Below are positions 13,420-62,203 of a stretch of DNA of 64,000 nt, piece after piece. The DNA lies in the NCBI GenBank assembly GCA_945874145.1, contig CAMCFN010000003.1:62001-126000 (forward strand), in the 5' to 3' direction. Source of the DNA: Akkermansia muciniphila. Lineage in GTDB: Bacteria; Verrucomicrobiota; Verrucomicrobiia; Limisphaerales; SXTU01. Position 1 is the first letter of the stretch. Each line of letters begins with the position of its first letter. The position numbers and the translations under genes were made by a program. Under the pieces are notes generated by a model. It worked only from the letters and a program-made list of their open reading frames with translations. It did not search any database and had not been told where the DNA came from.

Positions 13420-13424
13420 GGCCC

Positions 13425-13520
13425 GTGCCGGCGGCTTCCAGCCGCCGTGTTGCGCGTGGATTGCTCGGGGCCGGTTCGTGTTTCCGCTGCCCACACACGG
13501 CCGCTTCCAGCCGCCGGCAC
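13425..13520. repeat. Dispersed inverted repeat (GGCGGCTTCCAGCCGCC arms)
   Basis: GTGCCGGCGGCTTCCAGCCG at the left end mirrors CGGCTTCCAGCCGCCGGCAC-like sequence ending at 13520. Each arm is itself a small palindrome. The repeat lies directly after the DUF4838 stop and before the next signal-peptide gene. Confidence 0.75.
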
Positions 13521-13568
13521 GACCACTTCCCGTTTGACGCCCCTTCGCGTTCTGCAAAAGTCGCCGCC

Positions 13569-38073: not shown

Positions 38074-38170
38074 GGAGCGCGGCGTTCACGCCGCAGCAGG
38101 TTGGAGTGGAAAAGTGCGTGCGGAGCAGCGTTGACCTACGCACGTTTCTGCGGCCTGAAGGCCGCGCTCC
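38074..38170. repeat. Dispersed inverted repeat (GGAGCGCGGCGTTCACGCCG arm)
   Basis: The 23-base arms (38074-38096 and 38148-38170) pair with three mismatches. A smaller hairpin GTGCGT...ACGCAC sits in the loop. It lies between the ABC-F stop and the sulfatase stop. Confidence 0.85.
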
Positions 38171-40243: not shown

Positions 40244-42310
40244 ATGCTGCCATTTGCGCTGACGATTTTCACCGGGGCCTTCCTGCTCTTCTTGGTTCAA
40301 CCCCTGATTGGCAAATACATACTCCCGTGGTTCGGCGGCACGCCGGGCGTGTGGACGACGTGCATGCTCTTCTTCCAAATGGTGCTGCTGGCGGGCTACG
40401 CCTACGCGCACTTCACCTCCCGGTGGCTCAAGCCACGCCAGCAAGCCCTGCTGCATCTGGTGCTGCTGGGGACGGCGGTCGCCATGCTGCCCATCACCCC
40501 GTCGGACGCATGGAAGCCGCAGTCCGTGGACTCGCCCATCGGGCACATCCTGCTGCTGTTGGGTGCCAGCATCGGCCTGCCTTACTTCGTGCTCTCGACG
40601 ACCGGACCTTTGATGCAGGCGTGGTTTGCGCGCCTGCACCCGGACCGGTCGCCCTACCGGCTTTACGCCCTGTCGAACATTGGTTCGCTGCTCGCGTTGC
40701 TGGGATTTCCCTTTCTGTTCGAGCCCGTGCTGGCGAGAAAAGTGCAGGCAGAATACTGGGGTTGGGGGCTGGTGGCTTACGTGGTTTCGGCGGCGTGGTG
40801 TGCGTGGTTGCTCTGGAAGCGCGGGGTAGCTGATGAAATTCCTGCGCCTGGGAGCACGAACGCCGAGGAGGAGCCGGTGGAAGTCCCCTCGTTGCGGCGA
40901 AAGTTTCTGTGGCTCGCACTGCCCGCGTGCGCGTCGGCGCTGCTGCTGGCTACCACCAACAAGTTGTGCCAGGACGTGGCGGTGATTCCGTTCCTGTGGG
41001 TGCTGCCGCTAAGCCTGTATTTGCTCACGTTCATCCTTTGCTTCGATGCGCAGCGGTGGTATTGGCGACCGCTCTTCCTGCCGGCAATGCTGGGTTGTTT
41101 CGGCTGGCTGATCTACGTGCTGGCCAAAATCAACTCCATCGGCATCGGCTGGCAGGTGTCGGCGTTCTGCCTGACGCTGTTCGTCGCCTGCATGGTGTGT
41201 CATGGCGAGCTATATGCCCTGAAGCCGCACCCGCGCTGGCTGACGGGCTTTTATCTGATGATTTCACTGGGTGGTGCCGTGGGCGGTTTCCTCGTGGCGG
41301 TCGTCGCCCCGCACGTCTTCACCACCTACGCGGAACTGGCGTGGTCGTGCGGGGCCTGCGCGGTCCTGGTGTGGCTCGTTTGCCTGCCAAACTGGCGCGC
41401 GCCCGGCTTCCAATGGTGGCGCTTTCACGCGTGGCTGGCTGGTTCCCTGCCTGCGCTGGCCGTCTGTCTGGCGTTCTACATCCAGAGTCACGAGCGCGAC
41501 AACCTCGTTGAGGCCAGCCGTAATTTCTACGGGGCCATGTCCGTGCTGGATTACAACGAAGAGACTCCCGGCTCGCGCTACCTACTGCTTCAGCATGGGC
41601 GCATCACGCACGGCTTTCAACTCACCGACCCCGAGCAACGCCGGCGCATCACGACTTACTACGGCGAGAAGAGCGGCGTGGCCTTGGCTATTCTGAATTT
41701 TCCCCGGAAGGAAAAGCGCATCGGCGTGGTGGGCTTGGGCACGGGCACGCTGGCCGCCTTTGGCCAGAAGGGAGATTACGTGCGCATCTACGAGATCAAC
41801 ACCGAGGTCAAACGCCTCGCAACGTCGCGCTTCACCTTCGTCAACGACACGATCACCAACGGGGCCAAAGTGGACATCATCATGGGCGACGCCCGGCTCT
41901 CCATGGAACGCGAGGAACCGCAGAAGCTGGATGTGCTCGCGCTCGATGCGTTCAGCAGCGACGCGATTCCCGTGCATCTGCTGACCAAGGAAGCCGTGCA
42001 GATCTACCAAAAGCATCTGGCTCCCGACGGCGTGCTGGCCGTGCATATCTCCAATCGTTATCTGGACCTGGAGCCGGTGGTGGCGAACCTCGCCAAGGAA
42101 TTCGGTTACTCCATGGTGACCGTGGAAGACAGCAACACCGCCGAGGAATGGTGGATCTACACCTCCACCTGGGTTCTGCTGTCCAAGAACACTACCCTGA
42201 TTGACGCCATCACCAGCCTGTCCCCTGCCGAGACTAAAGAGAAAAGCCACAAGCTGGTCCCGCTCTGGACCGACGACTACGCCAGCCTGCTGCCGATCAT
42301 GAGCTGGTGA
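40244..42310 (+). CDS. Membrane-fused spermidine-synthase-like protein
   Basis: A 688-residue protein. Residues about 1-430 hold around ten membrane helices (LPFALTIFTGAFLLFLVQPL, LLLGASIGLPYFVLSTTGPL). Residues about 470-670 form a Rossmann domain of the spermidine synthase type: IGVVGLGTGTLAAFG, VRIYEINTEV, VDIIMGDARLSM and LALDAFSSDAIPVHLLT. This fused MFS-like/SpeE-like architecture is common in PVC and Acidobacteria, where the substrate is unknown. Polyamine synthesis itself is unlikely. ATG 40244 begins the first helix; the frame upstream to 40112 lacks coding character. Confidence 0.88.
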   Translation: MLPFALTIFTGAFLLFLVQPLIGKYILPWFGGTPGVWTTCMLFFQMVLLAGYAYAHFTSRWLKPRQQALLHLVLLGTAVAMLPITPSDAWKPQSVDSPIGHILLLLGASIGLPYFVLSTTGPLMQAWFARLHPDRSPYRLYALSNIGSLLALLGFPFLFEPVLARKVQAEYWGWGLVAYVVSAAWCAWLLWKRGVADEIPAPGSTNAEEEPVEVPSLRRKFLWLALPACASALLLATTNKLCQDVAVIPFLWVLPLSLYLLTFILCFDAQRWYWRPLFLPAMLGCFGWLIYVLAKINSIGIGWQVSAFCLTLFVACMVCHGELYALKPHPRWLTGFYLMISLGGAVGGFLVAVVAPHVFTTYAELAWSCGACAVLVWLVCLPNWRAPGFQWWRFHAWLAGSLPALAVCLAFYIQSHERDNLVEASRNFYGAMSVLDYNEETPGSRYLLLQHGRITHGFQLTDPEQRRRITTYYGEKSGVALAILNFPRKEKRIGVVGLGTGTLAAFGQKGDYVRIYEINTEVKRLATSRFTFVNDTITNGAKVDIIMGDARLSMEREEPQKLDVLALDAFSSDAIPVHLLTKEAVQIYQKHLAPDGVLAVHISNRYLDLEPVVANLAKEFGYSMVTVEDSNTAEEWWIYTSTWVLLSKNTTLIDAITSLSPAETKEKSHKLVPLWTDDYASLLPIMSW

Positions 42311-42342
42311 AGGGCTGGGCTTGTCCCGGTTCGTTCGCGCAT

Positions 42343-42382
42343 TGCTGTGGCCGGCCTCCGGCACCGCCGCGCTACGTTACAG
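42343..42382. repeat. Short palindromic repeat after the spermidine-synthase-like gene
   Basis: GCCGGCCTCCGGC is a palindrome and is followed by CGCTACGTTACAG, close to the element at 18492-18531. Confidence 0.5.
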
Positions 42383-42473
42383 CCGTAACTCTCCGTTCTC
42401 AGCGTGCCGCTCGACCCGTAGCAGCACAGCGAGCTGATTGGGCCGGTTCCGACCTCATGGACATCACTTCCAG

Positions 42474-45400
42474 CTAAGCTTGCCGCTGCGGCTGCAACAA
42501 CTCCGTCCGACCCAGCGCAAGGAAGTGCAGCCATGTCCGGGTGACCTTCTTCCCGTAAATCCGTTCCAGCGCCTCCGTGTAGAGCGACAACTGCGGTCCG
42601 TATTCCCGCACCTTCGTCGGCAATTCAGCCTCATCGAAGTGGTCCGTCTTGTAGTCCAGTAGCCAAATCTCGTGTTCACCGAACACCACCAAGTCTGCAA
42701 CCCCCTGCACGATGACGAACTCGGCTTCGTTTTGCCGCGTTCCGTGCTCCGTGTCCCGCGTTTGCATCAGCCCCATCGCCTCCAGTTCCCGCACCGTGAA
42801 GCGCGCGGTGAACGGCACTTCCCGCTGCACGCGGCTGTCTTGCGCCTGCGTGCGCACCTGCCGGCCGACGGGCGAATCCCAAAACCTCAGCAGCGCCTCG
42901 AAGTCCAAGGCCGCCATGTCGCGCTCGGTCAGAAAACCTGCGGCCACCAGTCGCGCGGCTTCATTCCGCAAGTCCAGCTCCGTCGCCGTGCGCGCGAAGT
43001 CCACGCACTGAAGAAAAGTGTGGTGTGCCACGCCCAGTTGCGCGGCGGATAGCTCGCCGCGCTTGCGCCGGGTTTCTGCCCTGCTCGTACGGAACCATTG
43101 CGTCGCCTCCTCGTCCGCCTCCGCTGCGCGCCGCCGCAGGAGGGTGACGGAGGTCTTGGCCGGTTCGTGCGTCGCCGCTTCATGTGCGTAAGCCTGAGTC
43201 AACTTCGCGCGGAGGCGTGCGACCGCCGCCGCTGCTCCCTCGCCCCCATCGGGTGTGAGGGCCGGGGTGAGGGGGCTGGCATCGTCGCGAATGAAGTGCG
43301 CTTCGCCCGACGAGGCTAACAGCTCATCCGACTGCCCAGACGGCGCGCTGAGGACCGCGCGCCCTCTCTGCGCCAGCCGTGCATCGTCCACCGCGTAGAA
43401 ATCCCAACGCAACAAATCGCTCCGACCAGCCGAGTCGCTTTGCCAGTCGTCGTCAAGCGTCACCGAGGGCAGCCACAGGCGCAGCCAATTCAACGGACAC
43501 CGCGCCTTGAGCAACGCGAGGTCACTCAACTCCGCCGCCGGGCCGCGCCATTTCACCGCCACTTCCTTGCCCGCATCCGTCCCGACGAGCAGCAGCGTGT
43601 CACGCGCGCGGGTGAGCGCCACGTAGAGCAGGCGCAACTCCTCGCCCAGCAGCTCGCGTCGACCGCGTCGGCGCGCGAGCCAGTGCGGCAGGCTCGCGTA
43701 GCGCCGCTCGCGACCGGGTGGCGACACCATCGGGCAGAGGCCGAACTGCTCGTCGATCAGGATGTCCCCGCGCAGGTCGCGCTCGTTAAACATCGTGCCC
43801 AAGCCCGCCACCACGACGACCGGGAATTCTAGCCCTTTGCTTTGGTGGATGCTCATCAAGCGCACCGCATTGTCCGTCGGCGCGGGCGCGGGGCCGTGGT
43901 CCAGCTCCTCCTCCTCCTGCGCGGCGATGAACTGGAGGAAGCGGTGCAAGCCCTGCCGCTGATACGGGTCAAATTGCCGTGCGAGGTCGAGCAGGCGGCG
44001 GACATTCGCCACGCGCTCCGTTCCACGCGGTTCGGCCAGCAACAGCGATTCGTAATGCGTCTCCGCCAACGCGCGTTCGAGGCAGTCGGTGAGCGAGCCG
44101 AGGCGGAGGCGCTTGCGCCAAACGGCGAAGCGAGCGAGGAACGCGCGGGCTTTGGCGAACGCGGAATGAGCAGCGGACGGCTCGCCAGCCGCGCCGAACT
44201 TCGTCAGCGCGTCCCAGAAAAGCCGCTCTTCGTTATGCGCGCGGATGGCAACGAGTTCCTCCAGCGACATCGCCACCAGCGGCGAGCGCATCACGGCCAG
44301 CAAGGGCAGGTCTTGCAGCGGGTTGTCCAACAGGCGGAGCAGGTTCAGCAAGTCGCTGACTTCCAGCGCCTCATAGAAGCCGCCGCGTTCCGCGTGCAAC
44401 GGCACCCCGGCGCGGTGAAACTCCTGTGCGAAGCTCTCCACTCGCGAGCCGGGCGAGCGCATCAGCACCACCATGTCGCGCCACTCGACGGGGCGTGCCG
44501 CTTTCGCTTCCTCGTCCCAAACCTCGTGGCTGCTGGTGTGCAACTGGCAAAGTCGGAGCGCCACGCAGCGTGCTTCGCGCTCGACGGCGAGTAGGTCGAG
44601 CGCGTCGGTTGCGGCGTCGCGGTCTTCGGACGGCTCGTCAGCGTCCTTGGTAAGAACGTGCAACTCGACGCGAGCGGCCCCCTTGTCACGGCCCTCTCCC
44701 CCTGTGAGGGCGAGGGCGGGGAGGCTGCGGAGCAGCGCTCGGCCTTCGGAGTTGCCAAACTGCAGCTTCGCCTCCTTATCGTAAGCCACGCCACCGATGG
44801 ACTCGCGCATGAGCGCATGGAACAACGGGTTCACGAAGTTCAGGATGGCCTCGCGGCTGCGGAAGTTTTCCGAGAGAGCGATGACGCCTGAAGCGCCGGT
44901 CTCTGCCCCGGCGCGTTGATCCCGACTGGAAGACAAGGCCGGGTCGGAGGCCGGCGCTCCACGACGCCATGCCTTCGCGTAGCCGGCGAAGATGTGTGGG
45001 TTCGCGAGGCGGAAGCGGTAGATGCTTTGCTTGAGGTCGCCGACGAGGAAGCGGTTAGCTGCCGCGCCATCACCGCTGAGGGCGCGAAGGATGGCGTCCT
45101 GCGCGGCGTTGATGTCCTGATATTCGTCCACGCAGACGTGCGTGAACTGCGTGCGGCACTGGCGGGCGACGCCGGTCGCGCCATCGCGCAGCAGCCGCAG
45201 CGCGAACTGTTCGAGGTCCGCGAAGTCCAGCCCGCCGAGCTGGCGCTTGGCCTCACCGAAGCGCGTGGTGAACTGCTGCGTGAGTTCGACCAGCGCGGCC
45301 ATTTCGTGACGGCACCAGTCCCAATCCTCGGCTAGCGCGGTGGCGGAGCCGTCCTCGCCGACGAGGGAGAGAAAGAACTCCGCTTCTCCAAAGAATTTAG

Positions 45401-46316
45401 CGAAGGGCGGGCGGAGTTCAGTCTTCTTGCGCTTCCAATTTTCGGCGCTGTCGGCGGCGAGTATTTCGGGGAGCGCGGTCGAAGCGGTAGCCAAGCAGGA
45501 CAATGTGTCTCGCCTGTCCTTCTGACTTTCCGCATGAGCGGGAGCTTGAGTTTGTTGGTCAGGCGGGACGCGCTGAACTACTTGAATGGCGGCGAGCGCG
45601 GTTCCGGAACGCTTCAGCGCGGGCACGTCAGGCGCGGTTGCGAGGGCGGGGAGCCATTCGGCGCACCACGCGGCGAGGGATGTGGTCAGCCAGTGTTTCC
45701 ATTGCGTCGGCGCGGGTTCACGGAAGGCGGTGAGCTGCGCGGTGAACCACGCATCGGGGGCGGGCAGGGTTTGCGAGTAGCGATGGAGTTTCCAGACGAG
45801 CACGCGGAGATGTTCGTCCGAGCCGCGACCGGCGCGGCGGATGAGTTGCTGGACAGCCTCGCTGTGCGGGTGCCGACTGGCGTAGTGCTCGGCGAGCAGC
45901 GCGGTGAGGCGGTCGCGGGCGAGCGGGCGGGTCTGGCGCTCGTCGAGGATGACGAGCTGCGGGTCAATCGCGAGGTGATTAAAGTGCTGCCGCACAAGGC
46001 GAAGGCAGAAGCTGTGCAGCGTGGAAATCTGTGCGGTGTCGAGCAGGGCGAGTTGCTCGGCTAAGCGGTCGCTTTCAGAGGCCGGTGCTTTTTCCAATTC
46101 GCACTGAAGTGCCTTCCGCAGCCGCGCACGCATCTCGGCGGCGGCGGCCTCGGTAAAGGTGACGAGGAGCATCTGGTCGAGCGAAGCGCCTTCGCGCAGC
46201 AGTTGCAGGCAGCGCTCAATGAGTGTGCGCGTCTTGCCCGTGCCCGCACCGGCCACGACGAGCACGTTGCCGCGCGCGGCGATGGCGGACTGTTGGGCGG
46301 GGGTGAAGCTGCTCAA
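42474..46316 (-). CDS. addA: AddA-type UvrD helicase/nuclease (double-strand break repair)
   Basis: A 1280-residue protein. Helicase motifs: Walker A AGAGTGKT at residues 22-29, DEYQD near 395, SENFRSREAIL near 480 and MSIHQSKGLEF near 820. The C-terminal RecB nuclease has WLLDYKTDHF near 1220. With AddB it should unwind and resect DNA ends for RecA. TTG 46316 overlaps the addB stop (TTGA) and starts SSFTPAQQSAI, so coupling favours it over the frame from 46370. Three stretches look like inserted repeats: GAPASDPA...AGAETGAS just before SENFRS, LPALALTGGEGRDKG and SPLTPALTPDGGEG. The frame stays open through all of them. Confidence 0.93.
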   Translation of the reverse strand: MSSFTPAQQSAIAARGNVLVVAGAGTGKTRTLIERCLQLLREGASLDQMLLVTFTEAAAAEMRARLRKALQCELEKAPASESDRLAEQLALLDTAQISTLHSFCLRLVRQHFNHLAIDPQLVILDERQTRPLARDRLTALLAEHYASRHPHSEAVQQLIRRAGRGSDEHLRVLVWKLHRYSQTLPAPDAWFTAQLTAFREPAPTQWKHWLTTSLAAWCAEWLPALATAPDVPALKRSGTALAAIQVVQRVPPDQQTQAPAHAESQKDRRDTLSCLATASTALPEILAADSAENWKRKKTELRPPFAKFFGEAEFFLSLVGEDGSATALAEDWDWCRHEMAALVELTQQFTTRFGEAKRQLGGLDFADLEQFALRLLRDGATGVARQCRTQFTHVCVDEYQDINAAQDAILRALSGDGAAANRFLVGDLKQSIYRFRLANPHIFAGYAKAWRRGAPASDPALSSSRDQRAGAETGASGVIALSENFRSREAILNFVNPLFHALMRESIGGVAYDKEAKLQFGNSEGRALLRSLPALALTGGEGRDKGAARVELHVLTKDADEPSEDRDAATDALDLLAVEREARCVALRLCQLHTSSHEVWDEEAKAARPVEWRDMVVLMRSPGSRVESFAQEFHRAGVPLHAERGGFYEALEVSDLLNLLRLLDNPLQDLPLLAVMRSPLVAMSLEELVAIRAHNEERLFWDALTKFGAAGEPSAAHSAFAKARAFLARFAVWRKRLRLGSLTDCLERALAETHYESLLLAEPRGTERVANVRRLLDLARQFDPYQRQGLHRFLQFIAAQEEEELDHGPAPAPTDNAVRLMSIHQSKGLEFPVVVVAGLGTMFNERDLRGDILIDEQFGLCPMVSPPGRERRYASLPHWLARRRGRRELLGEELRLLYVALTRARDTLLLVGTDAGKEVAVKWRGPAAELSDLALLKARCPLNWLRLWLPSVTLDDDWQSDSAGRSDLLRWDFYAVDDARLAQRGRAVLSAPSGQSDELLASSGEAHFIRDDASPLTPALTPDGGEGAAAAVARLRAKLTQAYAHEAATHEPAKTSVTLLRRRAAEADEEATQWFRTSRAETRRKRGELSAAQLGVAHHTFLQCVDFARTATELDLRNEAARLVAAGFLTERDMAALDFEALLRFWDSPVGRQVRTQAQDSRVQREVPFTARFTVRELEAMGLMQTRDTEHGTRQNEAEFVIVQGVADLVVFGEHEIWLLDYKTDHFDEAELPTKVREYGPQLSLYTEALERIYGKKVTRTWLHFLALGRTELLQPQRQA
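43234..43279 (-). repeat. Protein-coding repeat of the PLTPALSP type, inside addA
   Basis: The stretch codes for SPLTPALTPDGGEG on the minus strand. Its DNA has CCCTCGCCCCCATC opposite GAGGGCCGGGGTGAGGG, so it is partly palindromic. The same peptide type is scattered through many unrelated bacterial genes. Confidence 0.65.
44678..44726 (-). repeat. Second PLTPALSP-type repeat inside addA
   Basis: The stretch codes for LPALALTGGEGRDKG on the minus strand. It shares the CCTCTCCCCCTGTGAGGGCG core with the copy at 43234-43279. Confidence 0.6.
44892..44958 (-). repeat. 67-base coding palindromic element inside addA
   Basis: The arms (44892-44912 and 44938-44958, 21 bases each) pair with four mismatches around a 25-base loop. 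It encodes GAPASDPA...AGAETGAS. An element of the same 67-base length and near-identical peptide lies in addB. Confidence 0.85.
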
Positions 46317-49300
46317 GCTTCTTCCTCCTTGACGGTCGGCTTGGGCAACGTGCGGTAGGGCTGCGTCCACGGGTCGAAGCGGCAGATGGCACGGTAATCG
46401 CAGCGGTCGCAGGCTTTCTCGCTCGCACTCAGGCGGACGGGGGAAACGGCGACCTCGCCGGCGAAGATGGCTTCACCGAGGCGACGGAGATTGGCATCGA
46501 CTTGCGTGTGCAGTGCGGAGAACTCGGCATGAGGCAGCGCATCGCCGCCGCGTTTGCTGAGGCTTCCGTCTTTGTTCAGCGTGTAGCGGAACTGGCCGCT
46601 GGACTGGCCGCCGGGCCGGGCGTCGAGTAAAGCACGGTGCGTGAAGTCGAAGCGGCCGGCGTGCTGGTAGGTGGCGCGGCGAGCGGCTTCGTCCTCGGCG
46701 AGAATCTCAGCGCGCTCGCCGGTGGAGCCGGATGCGCCGTGGAGCGGAACGTAGAAGACCCCGGCTGGGTGAGGTTTCGTTGCAGCCGAGGGGAGGAGGC
46801 TATGACTCCATTCCGCATTCGTCATTTCTGATTCCGCGCTAGATGGAGCCTCCTCACGTCGGCTGCTACTGAGGACGTTGAGATACGCGAGCAATTGAAG
46901 TTGGAGGCCGTGGGCAACTTTGAGCGCGTCGAGTTTCTTGGGGCTGCTCTTGTAGTCCACGACGACGGCGAGGATTTCGCCAGTTTTCTCGTCTCGGCAG
47001 AGGTCCACGCGGTCAATGCGGCCGCGCAGCGACAGTGCGCGTCCGTCGGCGAGGTCCAGGTTCCACGCGGGCAAGGGGCTGCCGGGGAGGCCGAAGCCAA
47101 GCTCCACCGCGACGGGGTCGAAGGCGTAGCCCGGCATCCAGCCGACGAGGGCGGCGAGGAGGCGTTGCGCGCTGGCGATGAGCGAACGCGCGGCAAAGCG
47201 ACGGGATTCGTCTGCCGCGAAGAGCGCAAACTCGGGGCTGGCGAGGAGGTCCTCGCCGACGCGAGTGGCGAGTGCTGCGGCATCGTCGGGTGAGAGGTCG
47301 CGCCAGCGGCGGCCTGACGCGGTGACGCGGAGATGGAATTCATCGAGCAGCCGGTGGATGAAACTGCCGCGCTCGCGATGGTCCACCTCGAATTCCTTGC
47401 GTTCCTCCGCGCCGAGCCCGGCGGCGACGAAGAACTTGAAAGGGCACTCGGCGAATTGCTCGAGCTTGCTGACGGAGGTGCGGAGTTCGCCTTCGTAGAG
47501 CTGGAAAATGGCGCTTGGGGAAAGTGCGGTGATGGCACGGGCAGCGGTGAGTTCACGCCAGCAGGCGACGACGGGGGCGATGGCGGGGAGGGAGGCGAGG
47601 GAATGGGAGATGGGAGATGGGAGATAGTGTCTGGCGTCAGGCAGATAGGGCAGTGCCGGCGATTGCGAATCGCTGGCACTGGCGGAGGCGAGTTCGCGGA
47701 GGATGGGTTCAAGCAATTCCTCGGTGTGCTCGGCTTCGCGCCAGTCGGACGAGGTTGGGATTTTTTCCAGTTCGAGGCCGGGGAAGAGTTGTTGGACGTG
47801 CGCGAGGATGGGCGAGGGGTGGAGTGGTTTGCCGTCGGTGTCAGCGGTGGAGCAAGTGAGCACGAGTCGCGCGCGGCTGCGGGTGCAGGCGATGTAGGCG
47901 AAGTAGCGCTCGTGGGCAATCTGCGCGCGCGGGTCGAGGCCGAGGCGAGTGTCGTGCGCGGCGAGCAGGTCACGCTCGGAGTCGGTGAGCAGGACGGGCG
48001 GCGCGGGCGGGGCGGGGAAAATGCCTTCGTTCAGGCCGAGCACGAGGGCGAGTTGCAACTCGGGATTACGCGAGCGGTCAATGGTGCCGATGAGCACCTG
48101 GTCGAGCGCGGGGGGAATGACGCCGACGGAGAGGGAGCTGAGTCCGGTTTCGAGGATGGGGAGCCATTCGCGGAGCGGCAAGGCGGGAGCGCTGACGGGG
48201 AAGGCGCGCTCCAGATTGTCGAGCCACTCGTGCATCTGTCTTAAGACGGTGCTGTGGAGTGGCGGAGCGAGGTTGGGGGAGTCGAACTCAGCGGCGAGGT
48301 TGTCGTCCCAGGTTTGCAGGCGGGACTCGATGGTGAGGTCATCCCAGAAGGCGCAGAGGGCGGCGGCGAGGGTGGAGCCGGAGATTGATGAAGGCGGAGC
48401 GCCGGTTTCGGACCCGGCGTTTTGTGAAGTGGCAGTGCTTTGCGCCGGGTCGGAGACCGGAGCTCCGAGGCGTTGCGCAAAACTCCGTAGCGGAGCGGTG
48501 AGGCGGGCGCGGAGGTGTTCGGCACGCGCCATGTTGAATTGCGGTTCTGGGACATTGAGCGGTTCGAGCCATTGCGCGCCGCGCCAGCCGTAGGCGAGGG
48601 CGAGGTTTTCCAGCCAGTCAATGTCCTCGTCGCGGTCGTGGGCGAGGCCGGATTTCAGCGCGCCGAAGAGATCGTCGAGCTGCCAGCCGTAGGCGAGCGT
48701 GCGCAGTGCGAAGCGCGTCAGCTCCGCGAGCGGGTGGTGGGCGACGGGTTCGCGGCGGTCGAGGAAAAAGGGGATGTCGTAGCGCGTGAAGGCGCGGCGG
48801 AGCGCGCTGTGGTGGTGGTCGAGCGTGCGGAGAATGACAGCGCAGTCGCGGAAGCGTCCGCCCGCGCGGACGTGGCCGAGGATTTCGCGGGCGGCGAGGG
48901 TGGCCTCGGCCTCGGGGTTGGCGCAGAGGGCGATGCGCAGGGCCGGCGATTTACAATCGCCGTCGGGAGTGTTCGTCTCGTCGGGCGCGTTTGCATTGCT
49001 GGGCGCCGTGGGCGGCGATCGCAAATCGTGGGCACGGGCAACGGGGGCTGTCCAGTTGGCTGCCAGATGCGCGAGCGGAGGGCAGTCGCGGAAACGGCTG
49101 TGGATGGGATTGGGTGTGAATTTGCTTTCGGTGATTTCGCAATCGGGCAGCGCCTTGATGCGCTGCTTGCAGTCTGCGTAGGTGCGGCGGACGGTGGACC
49201 AGAGGGACAGCCAGCTGTGCGAGTCGGCGGCTTGCGAATCGAGGCAGAAGGCGAGCGTAGTGGTGTGGCAGAACGGGAGCACGGCGCAGAGCAGGTCAAG

Positions 49301-50011
49301 TTCCTGTGGCGTCATCTCGGCGAAGCCGTCGAGCCAGAGGCCGCCGATGCGGAGCGGTGCTGGTTGCTGAATGTTGGATGATCGAGGGCGGGGCGCGGTT
49401 TGGCTGGCCGTGTTCCGCAGAAAATCAGTTGCCACATCGAGCAACTGGTCCCCGTCCTGCGTGTCGCTCTCGGTGAGCCAATCATGATAGGCGCGGAGCA
49501 GGTGGTGGAGGTCGTGGAGTTTGTCACGCAGCGGGGCGCTCTCGATGCACTGCTCGGCGAGTCGGGCGAGTCGCGCGGGCGTGAGGTGGTGGCGCTGGAA
49601 CTCGCGGAGGAGCTGGCTGAGTTGCCGGGCGAAACCGGGCAGGCGCGCGGTGGCGCGGAAGACGCGGAGGGCAGGTTGCTCGCGGGCCAGCAGCGCGCGC
49701 AGCACCATCACGCGGCCCTCGTCATCAAGGAGCTCGGGCACGGTGCTGAAAGTTTCGAGCAGCCAGCGCGCGAGACGGTCGAAGGAGACGATTTGGAGGC
49801 GCGTGTAGCCGGCGAGGCCGGGGCTTTCGAGGAGCTGCCGCTCCAACTGAAACGTCGCCTGCTTGGGCGCGAGGAGCAGGAGCGGTGGGCCATCGGGAGC
49901 ACGCTTCAGCTCGGCGCGAATTTCCTCCAGACAACGCCACGTCTTGCCGCTGCCGGCAGGGCCGAGGAGGAAGTGGACGCGCACGCACTGATGGTCGGGC
50001 AGGGAGTTCAA
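46313..50011 (-). CDS. addB: AddB-type helicase-nuclease subunit with iron-sulfur motif
   Basis: A 1232-residue protein and partner of AddA. GPAGSGKT at residues 17-24 is the AddB Walker A. The nuclease site VVVDYKSSPKK is near residue 1017. A lone Cys in FAECPFKFF (about 855) and CDRCDYRAIC (about 1196-1205) match the four cysteines of the AddB 4Fe-4S nuclease domain. TTG 50011 starts the longest frame; GTG 49984 (VRVHFLLGPAGSGKT) may be the real start, because TTG lies in a GTTCAAAG tandem repeat. Three palindromic elements sit inside the gene without breaking the frame. It is the first gene of the addBA operon. Confidence 0.9.
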   Translation of the reverse strand: MNSLPDHQCVRVHFLLGPAGSGKTWRCLEEIRAELKRAPDGPPLLLLAPKQATFQLERQLLESPGLAGYTRLQIVSFDRLARWLLETFSTVPELLDDEGRVMVLRALLAREQPALRVFRATARLPGFARQLSQLLREFQRHHLTPARLARLAEQCIESAPLRDKLHDLHHLLRAYHDWLTESDTQDGDQLLDVATDFLRNTASQTAPRPRSSNIQQPAPLRIGGLWLDGFAEMTPQELDLLCAVLPFCHTTTLAFCLDSQAADSHSWLSLWSTVRRTYADCKQRIKALPDCEITESKFTPNPIHSRFRDCPPLAHLAANWTAPVARAHDLRSPPTAPSNANAPDETNTPDGDCKSPALRIALCANPEAEATLAAREILGHVRAGGRFRDCAVILRTLDHHHSALRRAFTRYDIPFFLDRREPVAHHPLAELTRFALRTLAYGWQLDDLFGALKSGLAHDRDEDIDWLENLALAYGWRGAQWLEPLNVPEPQFNMARAEHLRARLTAPLRSFAQRLGAPVSDPAQSTATSQNAGSETGAPPSSISGSTLAAALCAFWDDLTIESRLQTWDDNLAAEFDSPNLAPPLHSTVLRQMHEWLDNLERAFPVSAPALPLREWLPILETGLSSLSVGVIPPALDQVLIGTIDRSRNPELQLALVLGLNEGIFPAPPAPPVLLTDSERDLLAAHDTRLGLDPRAQIAHERYFAYIACTRSRARLVLTCSTADTDGKPLHPSPILAHVQQLFPGLELEKIPTSSDWREAEHTEELLEPILRELASASASDSQSPALPYLPDARHYLPSPISHSLASLPAIAPVVACWRELTAARAITALSPSAIFQLYEGELRTSVSKLEQFAECPFKFFVAAGLGAEERKEFEVDHRERGSFIHRLLDEFHLRVTASGRRWRDLSPDDAAALATRVGEDLLASPEFALFAADESRRFAARSLIASAQRLLAALVGWMPGYAFDPVAVELGFGLPGSPLPAWNLDLADGRALSLRGRIDRVDLCRDEKTGEILAVVVDYKSSPKKLDALKVAHGLQLQLLAYLNVLSSSRREEAPSSAESEMTNAEWSHSLLPSAATKPHPAGVFYVPLHGASGSTGERAEILAEDEAARRATYQHAGRFDFTHRALLDARPGGQSSGQFRYTLNKDGSLSKRGGDALPHAEFSALHTQVDANLRRLGEAIFAGEVAVSPVRLSASEKACDRCDYRAICRFDPWTQPYRTLPKPTVKEEEA
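47651..47681 (-). repeat. Short coding palindrome inside addB
   Basis: CAGTGCCGGCGATT at 47651-47664 mirrors AATCGCTGGCACTG at 47668-47681 with one mismatch. It encodes SASDSQSPAL on the minus strand. Confidence 0.75.
48398..48464 (-). repeat. 67-base coding palindromic element inside addB
   Basis: The 22-base arms (48398-48419 and 48443-48464) pair imperfectly around a 23-base loop. It encodes GAPVSDPA...AGSETGAP in the addB frame. Because it is palindromic, the plus strand also reads GAPVSDPA...AGSETGAP. Confidence 0.88.
48943..49032 (-). repeat. Coding inverted repeat with CGGCGATTTACAATCGCCG core, inside addB
   Basis: The left arm CGGCGATTTACAATCGCCG is itself a palindrome and pairs with the right arm GGCGGCGATCGCAAATCGTG about 50 bases on. 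It encodes a stretch ending DGDCKSPAL, similar to the SDSQSPAL copy at 47651-47681. Confidence 0.7.
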
Positions 50012-50034
50012 AGTTCAAGGTTCAAAGTTCAAGG
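50008..50034. repeat. GTTCAAAG/GTTCAAGG tandem repeat at the addB start
   Basis: Four GTTCAA units run through the gap between addB and the divergent gene. The addB TTG start falls in the first unit. Confidence 0.6.
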
Positions 50035-50088
50035 CGCTTGCTTGTAACGCAGGGTTGCGACAGCGAGGGAGTTCGCTACGCTGCGGCC

Positions 50089-52458
50089 ATGTCTTCCACC
50101 GCAGTGCGTTCTTGGGTCGTGGGTGCCTGCATGTTGTCGGTCGGTTTGGCGGGCGGGTATTTCGCCGGGCGGGGCGCTTTGCCAGCCGCGCCGCAGATCG
50201 GCAAGGCGGCGACCGCACCACCCACCACGGCTTCCACCCCTGCCGTCGCGAAGAAGGCGGCGAAGGAATCGCGCGGCTCCGACCCCGCCCGTGCGAACCC
50301 CTCGACCAGCAACGCGCCGCGCTCGCTCGACGAGATCGTCGCGAAGCTGCGGCAGGCGATGGCGGACCCGAACTATATGCGCGTCGGGCAGGGCATTTTC
50401 GAGGCGGCGCAGCATCTTGCTCCGGCGGACATCCCGGCGGTGCTGGCCCAGCTCAAGGGCCAGAGCGCTCAGCGAAACTTCTACGCCGTGCTCACGGCGC
50501 TCATGCCGCGCTGGGCGGAGGCGGACCCGGAGGCGGCGCTGGCCTACGCGCAGGCACTCACGCGCGTAAACGAGCGGCAGATGGCGCTCGCGGCGGTCTT
50601 TTCCGGCTGGGCGCGGCACGACGTGGAGGCGGCGATTGCGGCGGTGGAACGGCTCAAGAGCAGTGACGAGCGTCGGGGCGCGTGGGCGGCGATTCTGCCC
50701 GAACTGGCGCAAACCTCTCCGGAGCGCGCGTTGGAACTGCATCAGAAGCATGCCCAGGGCGGGAGCCAATACGGCGTGACCTACGGCCTCGGCTCAGTTC
50801 ACGGCATCTTTCACGCGTGGGCGCAAAACGACCCGGCGGGCGCGGCGGCAAAGGCGATGCAGTTGCCGGCGCGCGACCGCGACATGGCCATCAGCAGCAT
50901 CGCAACGCAGTGGGCGACGAAGGACTTGAACGGCGCGCTGGCATGGGCGCAGGCATTGCCCGAGGGCACGGGCAAGCGCAACGCCACGCGCGCGGTGCTG
51001 GGCGAATTGGCGAACCAAAACCCGCAGGCCGCCGGGCAATACGCCATGAGCCTCAAGGGCGCGGCCCAGCAGGACGCCATGTCCGCCGTCGCCGCCGCGT
51101 GGGGCCAGACCGATCTCACCGGCGCGCTGTCGTGGGCGCAGAACCTTACCGACGGACGCGCGCGCGACCGGGCGCTGCAATCGCTCGGCTCCGAATGGAC
51201 GCGGCGCGACCCGCAAGGCGCGGCGACTTACGTGAACAACCTCCCGTCTGGCCAGTTGAAAAACAGCCTCATCACGAGCATTGCGTCGGCGTGGGCCGGC
51301 ACGGACTCGAGGGCCGCGCTGGAATGGGTGCAGGCGCTTCCATCCGGCCAGTCACGCAACAGCGCGCTGCAAAGTGTCGTGAGTCAGATGAGTCACCGTG
51401 ATCCCGCCGCCGCTGCCGCGTGGTTGGAGGCGCTGCCGCCCGGTGGTTCGCGGCAGAGCTATTTGTTCAGCAATGTCGCCAGCCAGTGGGCTCAGCAAGA
51501 TCCGGAACGAGCGGCGGAGTGGGTGAAGCGGCTGCCCCCGGGAGCCGGCCAGCGGGATGCGGCAAACAACATCATCTACCAGCTCGCCGAAGCGAATCCC
51601 AAGCTGGCCGCGGATTTCGCCCTGTCGCTGCCCGCCGGGCAGTCGCAGCAAAACAGCGTCGGCAACGTCGCCTCACGCTGGGCGGCCAGTGATGCCAAGG
51701 GGGCGGTGGAATGGGCGCAGCAGTTGCCAGAAGGGGGCGTGCGGGACAACGCCTTGCGCAACGTGGCGAGCGCGTGGGCGCAGAACGATCCGCAGGCGGC
51801 GGCGGCGTTTGCCCAGAGCCTGCCGGCGGGGGGAACCCAGAAGAGCGCGCTGGCTTCCGTGGCGAGCGCCTGGGCCAGCCAGGATCCCAAGGCCGCCGCG
51901 CAGTGGGTGGCCGGCATGGGGAGCACCGACAGTTCAGGTGATTTGGTGCGCAGTGTGGCGCAGGGCTGGGCGCAGAACGCGCCCGCGGAGGCTGCGTCCT
52001 GGGTCGCGACGCTGCCGGTGGGAAAAGACCAGAACACCGCAGCGCTGGCCATTGTGAGCGCGTGGTCGCATCAGGAGCCGGCGGCAGCGGCGGCGTGGGT
52101 CGGGGCGTTTCCCGAGGGCCAGACGCGCGACAGTGCGATGCGCAATGTGATGTCCGGCTGGGCGCAGAATGATCCAGCGGGTGCGGGCGGCTGGCTGGAG
52201 ACGCTGCCCTCCGGTAAGTCCCGCGAGCGGGCGGTCGAGGCGTTTGTGGATCAAGTGTCGTATCAAGAACCCGCGCTGGCGGCGAAGTGGGTGTTGGAAT
52301 TGGTCTCGGCCAGTGCCGATGGAAAGGCCAGCCGGGAATCCTACCGCATTGATAATCTGGCCCGGCAGTGGTTGCAGCAGGACGAAACCGCCGCCCGGGC
52401 GTGGATTCAACAGGCGCCGATCTCGGAGGAGAAGAAGCGGATGCTGCTGAAGCGGTAG
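50089..52458 (+). CDS. Solenoid protein with about twenty 32-residue repeats
   Basis: A 789-residue protein with one N-terminal membrane or signal segment (WVVGACMLSVGLAGGYFAG) and a Pro/Ala/Lys linker. From about residue 85 to the end it is built of repeats of 32 residues with the pattern VASAWAxxDPxAAAxWAxxL, then PxGxxRxxAL. I count about 19-20 copies. The spacing and the Trp-Ala/Asp-Pro positions predict a helical-hairpin superhelix, likely a protein-binding scaffold in the periplasm. ATG 50089 is used; the frame upstream to 49885 overlaps addB. I do not recognise a named family. It is divergent from addB. Confidence 0.8.
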   Translation: MSSTAVRSWVVGACMLSVGLAGGYFAGRGALPAAPQIGKAATAPPTTASTPAVAKKAAKESRGSDPARANPSTSNAPRSLDEIVAKLRQAMADPNYMRVGQGIFEAAQHLAPADIPAVLAQLKGQSAQRNFYAVLTALMPRWAEADPEAALAYAQALTRVNERQMALAAVFSGWARHDVEAAIAAVERLKSSDERRGAWAAILPELAQTSPERALELHQKHAQGGSQYGVTYGLGSVHGIFHAWAQNDPAGAAAKAMQLPARDRDMAISSIATQWATKDLNGALAWAQALPEGTGKRNATRAVLGELANQNPQAAGQYAMSLKGAAQQDAMSAVAAAWGQTDLTGALSWAQNLTDGRARDRALQSLGSEWTRRDPQGAATYVNNLPSGQLKNSLITSIASAWAGTDSRAALEWVQALPSGQSRNSALQSVVSQMSHRDPAAAAAWLEALPPGGSRQSYLFSNVASQWAQQDPERAAEWVKRLPPGAGQRDAANNIIYQLAEANPKLAADFALSLPAGQSQQNSVGNVASRWAASDAKGAVEWAQQLPEGGVRDNALRNVASAWAQNDPQAAAAFAQSLPAGGTQKSALASVASAWASQDPKAAAQWVAGMGSTDSSGDLVRSVAQGWAQNAPAEAASWVATLPVGKDQNTAALAIVSAWSHQEPAAAAAWVGAFPEGQTRDSAMRNVMSGWAQNDPAGAGGWLETLPSGKSRERAVEAFVDQVSYQEPALAAKWVLELVSASADGKASRESYRIDNLARQWLQQDETAARAWIQQAPISEEKKRMLLKR

Positions 52459-61100: not shown

Positions 61101-62203
61101 AGGCCGCCACGGAAAAAGTCACCGCCGAAGCCGCGTGGACTCAGGCCAAAGCCTCTGCCGACAGGGCTGCGACGGAGCTGGTCGGCGCACTCAAGACAGC
61201 CACTGACGCCAAGCTGGCTGCTGACAAGGCCACCGTCGAGTCGGCCACCAAAACGAAAGCCGCCACCGAGGCCCGGGCCAGCGCGGACAAACTTGCTGCC
61301 AAAGCCGTTACGGAAAAAGCCGCTGCCGAGGTCGACGCAAATCTGGCCAAGGCCAGCGCTGACAAGGCCGCTGCCGTGCTGGTGAGTGCCTTGAAGCGAA
61401 GCGCGGACAGCAAACTTGCCAGCGACAAGGCCGCAGCCGAATCCGCCAACCGAGCCAAAGCCGCCAGCGAGGCTCGGGCCAGTGCCGACAAGCTGGCCGC
61501 CAAGGCCGCCACGGAAAAGGCCGCCGTTGAAGCCGCGGGGACTCAGGCCAAAGCCGCCGCCGACAAGGCTGCGACCGAGTTGGCGAGTGCGCTGAAGACG
61601 AACGCGGAAAACAAGCTGGCGGCCGACAAGGTGAACACCGACCTCGCCGCCAAGACTCGCACCGCTGAGGAAGCCCGCGTCAAACGCGATAGGCTCGCGA
61701 CCGACGAGGCCGCGAAGAAGCGCGAGTTGGACCGGCTGACGGCGGAGTTCACCGTCAAGGCCGCTGCCGCCAAAGCTACCCAGGCCGCCTTCGAGAAGAC
61801 TGAGCGCGACATGAAGGAAGCCCGCGTCAAGGTGGAGGAGCAGTTGAAACAGGCGGACACCAAACTCACCGAGACCAAGGCCAGCAAGGAGAAGGAGCTG
61901 GCCGGGTTGACCGCGAAAGTGACTGAGCTGGACACGGCGCGGAAGGCGTTGGACAAGGAGAACACCGACCTCTGGAACCTGATTCAGAAGCTCGTGGCGG
62001 AGCGGAACCAATTGAAGATCCAGCAGACCAACGCCGAGAGCGCGCTGGGCCGGGCGAACACGGACGTGGCTTTGCGCAAGCGCACCGTGCAGAGCGCGGA
62101 GGCGCTGGTCGCGCAGTCCGCCGAGAAGAAGCTCGCCACTGAGAAGCTGCTTGCCACCGCCCGCGCCGCCATTGAGAAGCGCGCCCGGGCGCAGTTTAAG
62201 TAA
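58127..62203 (+). CDS. Giant exported protein with three PA14 domains and a long coiled coil
   Basis: A 1358-residue protein with a signal peptide (VLRALLCFLACATAHAG). Three PA14 domains start near residues 95, 243 and 393 (GLLGTYYERVDLSGRPV, GLLAAYFRRTDLDSSSAV, GLLGTYFSRADCSSEVL). Residues about 610-710 are a beta domain (LLVNGDFVDGEFKGLERGRV, LSSVLFGLKFFD) shared with the next gene. From about residue 725 the rest is Ala/Lys/Glu coiled coil with a 67-residue (201-base) tandem repeat. PA14 binds glycans, so cell-surface or matrix attachment is a fair guess. The stop overlaps the next start (TAATG). Confidence 0.85.
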   Translation: MSSVHLPIRAHPRVLRALLCFLACATAHAGSLRTREGKFLEGNVQLDAPAGVKITLANGQQQAFPFASLEQATFTASSATSLPPEVAALMKGQGLGLLGTYYERVDLSGRPVHRLDATVNFDWELGEPIAGVQKDYFSARWSGQLEAPVSGKFTFHLDADDGARLWVGDRLVCDAWRISDSSEISGTMDLQAGQRYDLRLEYYDNLGPAHLRLSWAGPGIPKSIVPRSQLHPSLGVKPTGSQGLLAAYFRRTDLDSSSAVTRLDPQLDFNWGNNAPVAEVPAESFSARWSGQVNAQFTESHTFHVEAGGGVRVWLDGQRILDQWRDQPGEFYSTVVPLTAGQKYDLRIEHFSTSKEAKMRLLWSSASQRKSVIPAAALSPSQPARPAGAKPVHGLLGTYFSRADCSSEVLKRVDAQVNFDWADKPAAMGVPTEDFSVRWTGQVQAQHTENHTFHLETDDGVRVWVGDKQVIDEWRQQSTTVVSLPVPLAAGQFYPLTIEYFSAKPPALVKLKWSSPSTPLGIIPASRLYPPHAPNTPAPGERRLGLDRGVVTWDGSFLAAPLVAGDDTALQFGGAQKDFSLSTVNAARLIFQNLSAQRAAKVEPGRSGVLLVNGDFVDGEFKGLERGRVKLSSVLFGLKFFDANYEVVAVILREPSPGTPQFRIRASDGSVLLVKKFAITPEGLTVEDATLRGYKVPAQELVEIRQGSGTNLFSASLQLGPQSLHAQAAKVDAAAEREWKAKAEAVRNVVVAENDKRARMEVEEERKIRTELDAATDADRVLKATLAKLAEQQEALAKARAELKDAEAKAEELRLAAKKVTEAHDAKTAETDKLKAQHDKQKAAYSQRGQEFLAATQSQARRHAVLNAEVAAAEAALAGTRNRLVIAKQEETSRTKTADAGRKAAALAAEQGEAARAKAEAAWKGTQSDAVKAVAAREEAKKFADQAAAELTSALKRSADSKLATDKATVESANRAKAAAEARTSADKLAAKAATEKVTAEAAWTQAKASADRAATELVGALKTATDAKLAADKATVESATKTKAATEARASADKLAAKAVTEKAAAEVDANLAKASADKAAAVLVSALKRSADSKLASDKAAAESANRAKAASEARASADKLAAKAATEKAAVEAAGTQAKAAADKAATELASALKTNAENKLAADKVNTDLAAKTRTAEEARVKRDRLATDEAAKKRELDRLTAEFTVKAAAAKATQAAFEKTERDMKEARVKVEEQLKQADTKLTETKASKEKELAGLTAKVTELDTARKALDKENTDLWNLIQKLVAERNQLKIQQTNAESALGRANTDVALRKRTVQSAEALVAQSAEKKLATEKLLATARAAIEKRARAQFK
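60956..61690 (+). repeat. 201-base in-frame tandem repeat in the PA14/coiled-coil gene
   Basis: Three full units (60956-61156, 61157-61357, 61358-61558) and a decaying fourth encode ADxAAxELxSALKxxxDxKL repeats of exactly 67 residues. The frame is kept. Copy number may vary between strains. Confidence 0.85.

Follow-up and report, generated by a model that had tools for sequence, protein, structure and literature searches.

In-frame palindromic repeats of a dispersed family and of other families in the addA and addB genes of a verrucomicrobial genus

Intragenic palindromes and the F1 element

Palindromic repeats inside genes are known from several bacteria. PMC3733652 describes repetitive extragenic palindromes (REPs) with GTAG and CGTC tags inside genes, most of them in Opitutus terrae and Rickettsia conorii, with O. 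terrae (Verrucomicrobia) highest in intragenic GTAG repeats. Many of these intragenic REPs lie in repair genes including recBCD, for which a benefit is speculated upon, and REPs stand in frame in some genes, among them recBCD, DnaE and tRNA synthetase genes. In Wolbachia, in-frame palindromes occur in addA, addB and priA among 12 recombination genes, according to PMC4224334. Palindromes in the DNA-end-processing genes (addAB/recBCD) of Xanthomonas are also in print. We analysed a 64,000-nt stretch (hereafter the window; positions 62,001 to 126,000 of contig CAMCFN010000003.1, assembly GCA_945874145.1, GTDB lineage Limisphaerales; SXTU01) in which addA and addB each carry a palindromic dimer of one family, here called F1.

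We consider it highly probable that F1 is a non-autonomous, REP-dimer-like element that has spread within one verrucomicrobial order, and that addA and addB are permissive to several palindrome families. This reading is supported by the dispersal of F1, its in-frame placement in genes, its presence and absence between relatives, the purifying selection on addA and addB, and the excess of dimers in the addAB of congeners over other genes.

The addA and addB copies of F1 consist of two 24-base arms of one sequence, GGAGCGCCGGTCTCCGACCCGGCG, in inverted orientation and separated by a spacer of 23–24 bases. The arm is laid out like a REP unit, with a GGAG tag and a 6-bp hairpin, and its sequence is free of stop codons in all six frames. 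The loci examined (L numbers; genomes are given G numbers) held 186 unique copies, comprising 110 dimers and 76 single arms. Spacers were 23 or 24 nt long in 62 of the 107 dimers of an earlier list, and their sequence varied from copy to copy. Folded as single-stranded DNA, the dimers gave z = -3.6 (addA) and -7.3 (addB) on the + strand and -3.4 (addA) and -4.8 (addB) on the - strand. The initial annotation had described both as 67-base elements made of imperfect inverted repeats of 21-22 bases; inverted repeats they are, with a symmetry that extends slightly beyond the 67 bases (Table 1). The peptides it assigned, GAPASDPALSSSRDQRAGAETGAS in addA and GAPVSDPAQSTATSQNAGSETGAP in addB, are those encoded, and the opposite strand of the addB copy indeed reads nearly the same peptide (GAPVSDPAFCEVAVLCAGSETGAP, + strand, within an open reading frame (ORF) at 47949-48593).

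F1 shares with REPs and their paired form, the REP doublets forming hairpins (REPINs), as described in PMC3733652, a short tag with a hairpin-capable unit (z about -1.4), frequent inverted pairing, variable spacers, a high copy number and a location mostly outside genes. It differs from the GTAG and CGTC superfamilies in its GGAG tag, whereas a second family, F2, carries GTAG in the same addB. REPs come with a cognate REP-associated tyrosine transposase (RAYT, a Y1 transposase) that is bordered by copies of the same repeat; for F1, no such partner was found in the sampled Y1 loci or in this genome, which is 82% complete. With the Rickettsia and Wolbachia palindromic elements, compared by description, F1 shares in-frame insertion into ORFs, and the Wolbachia targets include addA and addB (PMC4224334). 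The analogy to the Rickettsia elements drawn in the initial annotation is borne out in that F1 is dispersed and lies in frame in genes. By contrast, F1 occurs in another phylum and carries another tag (R. conorii elements are tagged CGTC in PMC3733652, and F1 lacks CGTC), and its hosts are environmental metagenome-assembled genomes of several megabases rather than reduced endosymbionts. Literature searches, which left most subscription journals outside and did not use the F1 sequence as a query, found nothing on F1 or on addAB repeats in this order, nor on repetitive palindromes in Pedosphaera. The GGAG-tagged family, the convergence of several families on addAB and the reading-frame bias described below are apparently new.

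Dispersal and reading frame of F1

This genome contains 50 F1 arms at up to three mismatches, against 0 for a reversed control pattern; by hand count they make up 34 sites, with both arms passing in 16. A second F1 pattern gave 24 matches against 0 in the control. The further copies without which a mobile-element reading fails are thus plentiful. Of 58 genomes from the genus and order, 19 (this genome among them) have the 18-base core of F1, whereas an exact 23-base match was confined to this genome among 387 genomes of the phylum, 385 of them outside the order, and the exact arm had 0 matches in viral contigs. Scanning genome contigs for F1 returned at least 114 stretches. The labels of 80 of these (hand count) read Verrucomicrobia, Limisphaerales or Pedosphaera in 59 cases, "Proteobacteria" in 12 (RFSE01), "Akkermansia muciniphila" in 3 (CAMAUZ01) and only "bacterium" in 6; RFSE01 corresponds to G004, which falls in the same genus as the window, and CAMAUZ01 to G046, from the same order.

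The F1 segments lie in variable linkers of AddA and AddB and are absent from aligned relatives in both proteins, so that shared descent of the same residues, raised at the outset as a possible objection, was not seen. Presence and absence were clearest at one site in valyl-tRNA synthetase (ValRS), which is filled in L142, L180 and L361 (G010, same genus) and unfilled in six ValRS-like loci from five genomes of the genus (this genome and G001-G004). L360 and L373, both from this genome, match the ValRS flanks, and two ValRS-like genes or some contamination are possible.

Genic copies were called with a model of codon periodicity, for which long ORFs from the loci served as training data; coding sequence was required on both sides, along with a frame open through the element. 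This yielded 25 of 186 copies under a strict rule and 44 of 186, in 41 ORFs, under a loose one. Thirty of the 41 ORFs were scanned, and 27 matched Pfam families while 3 matched none. A single domain match spans F1 in eight ORFs: a C5-methylase (L076), a RecQ zinc domain (L082), a prolyl-tRNA synthetase editing domain (L102), an AMP-binding domain (L113), KsgA (L118), ValRS (L142), a solute-binding protein (L174) and DUF1015 (L188); in L167, a gapped AAA_19 match runs across the element. F1 occupies differing places in four AddA genes, at residues 471-493 in the protein studied here and, converted to its residues by alignment, at ~337-345 in L143 (a single arm), 243-248 in L167 and 267-298 in L256 (G046). 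The L194 gene at 452-2185 (G005), the same gene as L076 745-2550 and a C5-cytosine DNA methyltransferase by Pfam, has an in-frame F1 dimer, one arm of which is degenerate, and a single arm in addition.

The 3' arm stood in the AGSETGAP frame in 25 of 30 full copies (loose rule; two orthologous pairs, L022/L094 and L063/L114, are among the 30) and in 15 of 18 under the strict rule. Either selection acting on the peptide or a target with a frame preference could account for this bias. At the site shared by L022 (637-704) and L094 (3837-3907; AcrB by Pfam, with the same flanks in L022), the F1 copies of the two genomes show a length difference of 3 bases, which agrees with selection preserving the frame. 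The data support F1 as a dispersed, in-frame, coding-compatible palindrome.

Integrity of addA and addB and their palindrome density

Both ORFs are uninterrupted despite their palindromes, confirming the in-frame placement first proposed. The helicase and nuclease motifs are present and intact, with helicase motifs III and IV flanking the AddA F1. Ten comparisons with six congeners, excluding codons adjoining gaps, gave dN/dS values of 0.17-0.30. Judged from sequence, addA and addB look functional and under purifying selection. A model of AddB residues 431-640 had a mean predicted local distance difference test (pLDDT) score of 86, with the F1 segment at ~58 between helices above 90; the corresponding AddA model was too poor to be used.

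At least six repeats were found in the addAB of this genome, partly by eye: two F1, one F2 and three others (Table 1). One AddA loop is occupied by F1 in this genome and by F2 in both G005 and G001; in the same loop, G004 has a degenerate F2-like repeat and G003 a different palindrome, of which G009 has a single unit. These families were assigned partly by eye. F2 arms at up to two mismatches numbered 139 in G005, 67 in G001, 53 in G004 and 15 in this genome, and the control gave 0 in all 11 genomes. At least three exact F2 arms of G005 lie in addAB, where length alone predicts ~0.2 of the 139. F2 was also seen in L391 (G005, DnaE family), where a DNA polymerase III alpha gene carries an in-frame dimer (SSRREEAP...SLVTSAAT). 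For F1, none of 125 exact 18-base-core matches in 18 other genomes fell in a located addA or addB (judged by contig and by eye, some genes being fragmentary or missing); because ~0.2 were expected by length, this counts neither for nor against F1 enrichment in addAB. The two AddA genes among the at least 114 F1 stretches (L143, L167) are too few for such a claim. The initial annotation had singled out the presence of F1 in both subunits of one complex, but the data do not support this pairing as special to F1, since palindromic dimers from several families, some of them in the same loops, also occur in the addA and addB genes of congeners. It is more apt to say that addA and addB of this genus hold many palindrome families.

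Dimers were counted at a fixed inverted-repeat score in the addAB of nine congeners, this genome excluded and several ORFs being incomplete. There were 17 palindromic dimers in 50.0 kb (six each in G005 and G010, three in G001, one each in G007 and G009, and none in G002, G003, G004 and G008). In the AddA and AddB genes of other genera, 208.5 kb contained 5; G046 accounted for four, including one at the extreme start of AddB. Control genes, taken from stretches of G005, G010, G046 and G001, held 8 dimers in 321 kb, seven of which were in G005 (7 per 242 kb once G046, a member of another family, is set aside), and those of at least 700 aa held 2 in 93.8 kb; beyond called genes or at their edges, the same stretches had 46 in 54.9 kb. 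The control genomes were picked after the addAB counts were known, which biases this contrast upwards, although all nine congeners enter into the figure of 17 per 50.0 kb. The ORF rules also differ between the two counts; under the control rule, eight congeners gave 17 in 53.3 kb (hand sums). At the fixed score, the window contained one genic dimer, the addB F1.

Class I tRNA synthetases had 6 dimers in 41.9 kb and DnaE 2 in 32.5 kb, this genome included. In Fisher tests that treat each 100-nt unit as a trial, with copies common by descent being non-independent, addAB exceeded all control genes (p 5e-10) and tRNA synthetases plus DnaE (p 0.006), but not significantly tRNA synthetases alone (p 0.088). 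The tRNA synthetases plus DnaE in turn exceeded the control genes (8/74.4 kb vs 8/321 kb, p 0.005). The addAB genes are extreme in dimer density yet not alone, with tRNA synthetases and DnaE intermediate.

Proposed mobilisation, alternatives and related repeats

The transposase moving F1 would act in trans and would most probably belong to the Y1/TnpA-REP type. Unrelated palindrome families would enter addA and addB repeatedly at the same loops, and the peptides they encode would be translated as flexible loops. Gene-breaking copies would be lost, and the addAB excess would then reflect tolerance and purging rather than benefit. Of the mobile palindrome first proposed, dispersal and in-frame insertion stand, and transposition is what we infer.

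Several results weigh against this reading. No Y1_Tnp match was found in this genome, which is 82% complete. None of 40 sampled Y1 loci (39 distinct places, some ending at contig ends) had an adjacent F1, the nearest arm at up to four mismatches being ~1.6 kb away. No clean target duplication was found at F1 sites, and filled ValRS sites appeared 75-83 nt longer than empty ones by extrapolated BLAST ends, not 71 nt. A single arm reached -7.3 kcal/mol at the z given above, an unexceptional hairpin, and the best fold of the dimer pairs arm with arm. Three of the 17 congener dimers share one AddA site (G007, G009, G010) and look inherited. The AddA fragment model (pLDDT 57.6) was uninformative on the AddA F1 segment. 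Finally, an early frame script counted 19 in-frame open copies against 16 with same-strand coding flanks in differing frames; its margins were distorted by the stop penalty, and it was replaced by the codon-periodicity model. The 16 copies may represent gene borders or broken genes, so the loss of out-of-frame copies is presumed.

Y1 matches were present in 47 of the 58 genomes of the genus and order, and at least two Y1 loci have palindromic dimers of their own beside the gene (L280 768-2280 and L278 3925-4880, of the TGCCCCGGAGGGGCA and AACCCCG..GGGGTT types). L194, the sole locus with widely spaced F1 arms whose ORFs were inspected, contained no transposase. A link of F1 to a specific transposase was not established, the sampled Y1 loci lacking adjacent F1 and this incomplete genome lacking Y1 matches.

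The strongest alternative, which we nevertheless judge unlikely, is that insertions in addAB are favoured because an altered AddAB lowers recombination between repeats or gives a mutator-like benefit. The addAB excess over the controls, including those of at least 700 aa and the tRNA synthetases plus DnaE, agrees with it, as do the Wolbachia report on recombination genes (PMC4224334) and the REP report on recBCD and other repair genes, with its similar speculation (PMC3733652). However, the dN/dS values and intact motifs speak against a strongly impaired AddAB, the elevated density in tRNA synthetases and DnaE is unpredicted by a recombination benefit, and addAB did not differ significantly from tRNA synthetases alone. 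It is more improbable still that the palindromes act in the mRNA, in addAB stability or translation control, with the peptide incidental: the dimers fold strongly, but positions and families differ between species, and the AGSETGAP frame bias is unpredicted by RNA function. Rfam at gathering thresholds matched zero families in window 42000-50500, which counts neither for nor against such a role. That the segments are ordinary fast-evolving linkers with a palindromic look from base composition is scarcely credible, since, although they sit in variable linkers, the same arm recurs 50 times against 0 in the control, in differing genes, outside genes and in many other genomes.

With F1 taken as a dispersed REP-dimer-like element in permissive genes, the locus offers a natural experiment: in sister species, palindromes of several unrelated families have entered the same loops of a single enzyme complex, and purifying selection on the enzyme has continued. 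Read alongside the Wolbachia and recBCD reports, it opens to testing the long-standing, loosely framed question of what makes in-frame palindromes gather in genes for repair and recombination, and it points to a simple route by which proteins may gain new loops. A bolder proposal, which we regard as doubtful, is that addAB/recBCD would be a recurrent landing site for protein-coding palindromes across unrelated phyla, to a degree that tolerance does not account for, with repeat insertion tuning recombination in repeat-rich genomes, and that F1 would form a separate GGAG-tagged REP-like class with its own mobiliser.

Other dimers with GGAGCGC at their outer ends and differing stems were seen at window 38074-38170, L333 2442-2515 and 3010-3070, and L339 7643-7711. 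These sequences hint that GGAG-tagged REP-like elements form a class wider than F1.

Table 1 Genes and palindromic repeats at the addAB locus (window positions).
Feature	Position	Strand	Remarks
addA ORF	42474..46370	-	1298 aa; UvrD-like helicase/nuclease; match PDB 3u44_A, E 6.1e-135
addB ORF	46313..50011	-	1232 aa; match PDB 3u44_B, E 1.6e-101
F1 palindromic dimer (GGAG-tagged) in addA	44889..44960 (approximate, by eye)		residues ~471-493, between presumed helicase motifs III/IV
F1 palindromic dimer in addB	48395..48467		residues ~515-539; low-confidence stretch of AddB fragment model
F2 dimer in addB, in frame	46779..46869		GTAG-tagged consensus GTAGCAGCCGACGTGAGGAGGCTC; encodes SSSRREEAP...SLLPSAATK; one arm degenerate
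Short GDCKSP-type palindrome in addB	48942..48964		matches in up to 5 other loci
CCCTCACCCCGGCCCTC-type palindrome in addA (SPLTPALTPDGGEG)	43235..43276		matches in up to 11 other loci
Further addA dimer (QRVPPDQQTQAPAHAESQKDRRDTLS)	45493..45583		by eye similar to L333 6483-6579, AddB of congener G010

Elsewhere in the window, positions 13424-13521 hold a dimer of yet another family (CGTGCCGGCGGCTTCCAGCCGCCG).

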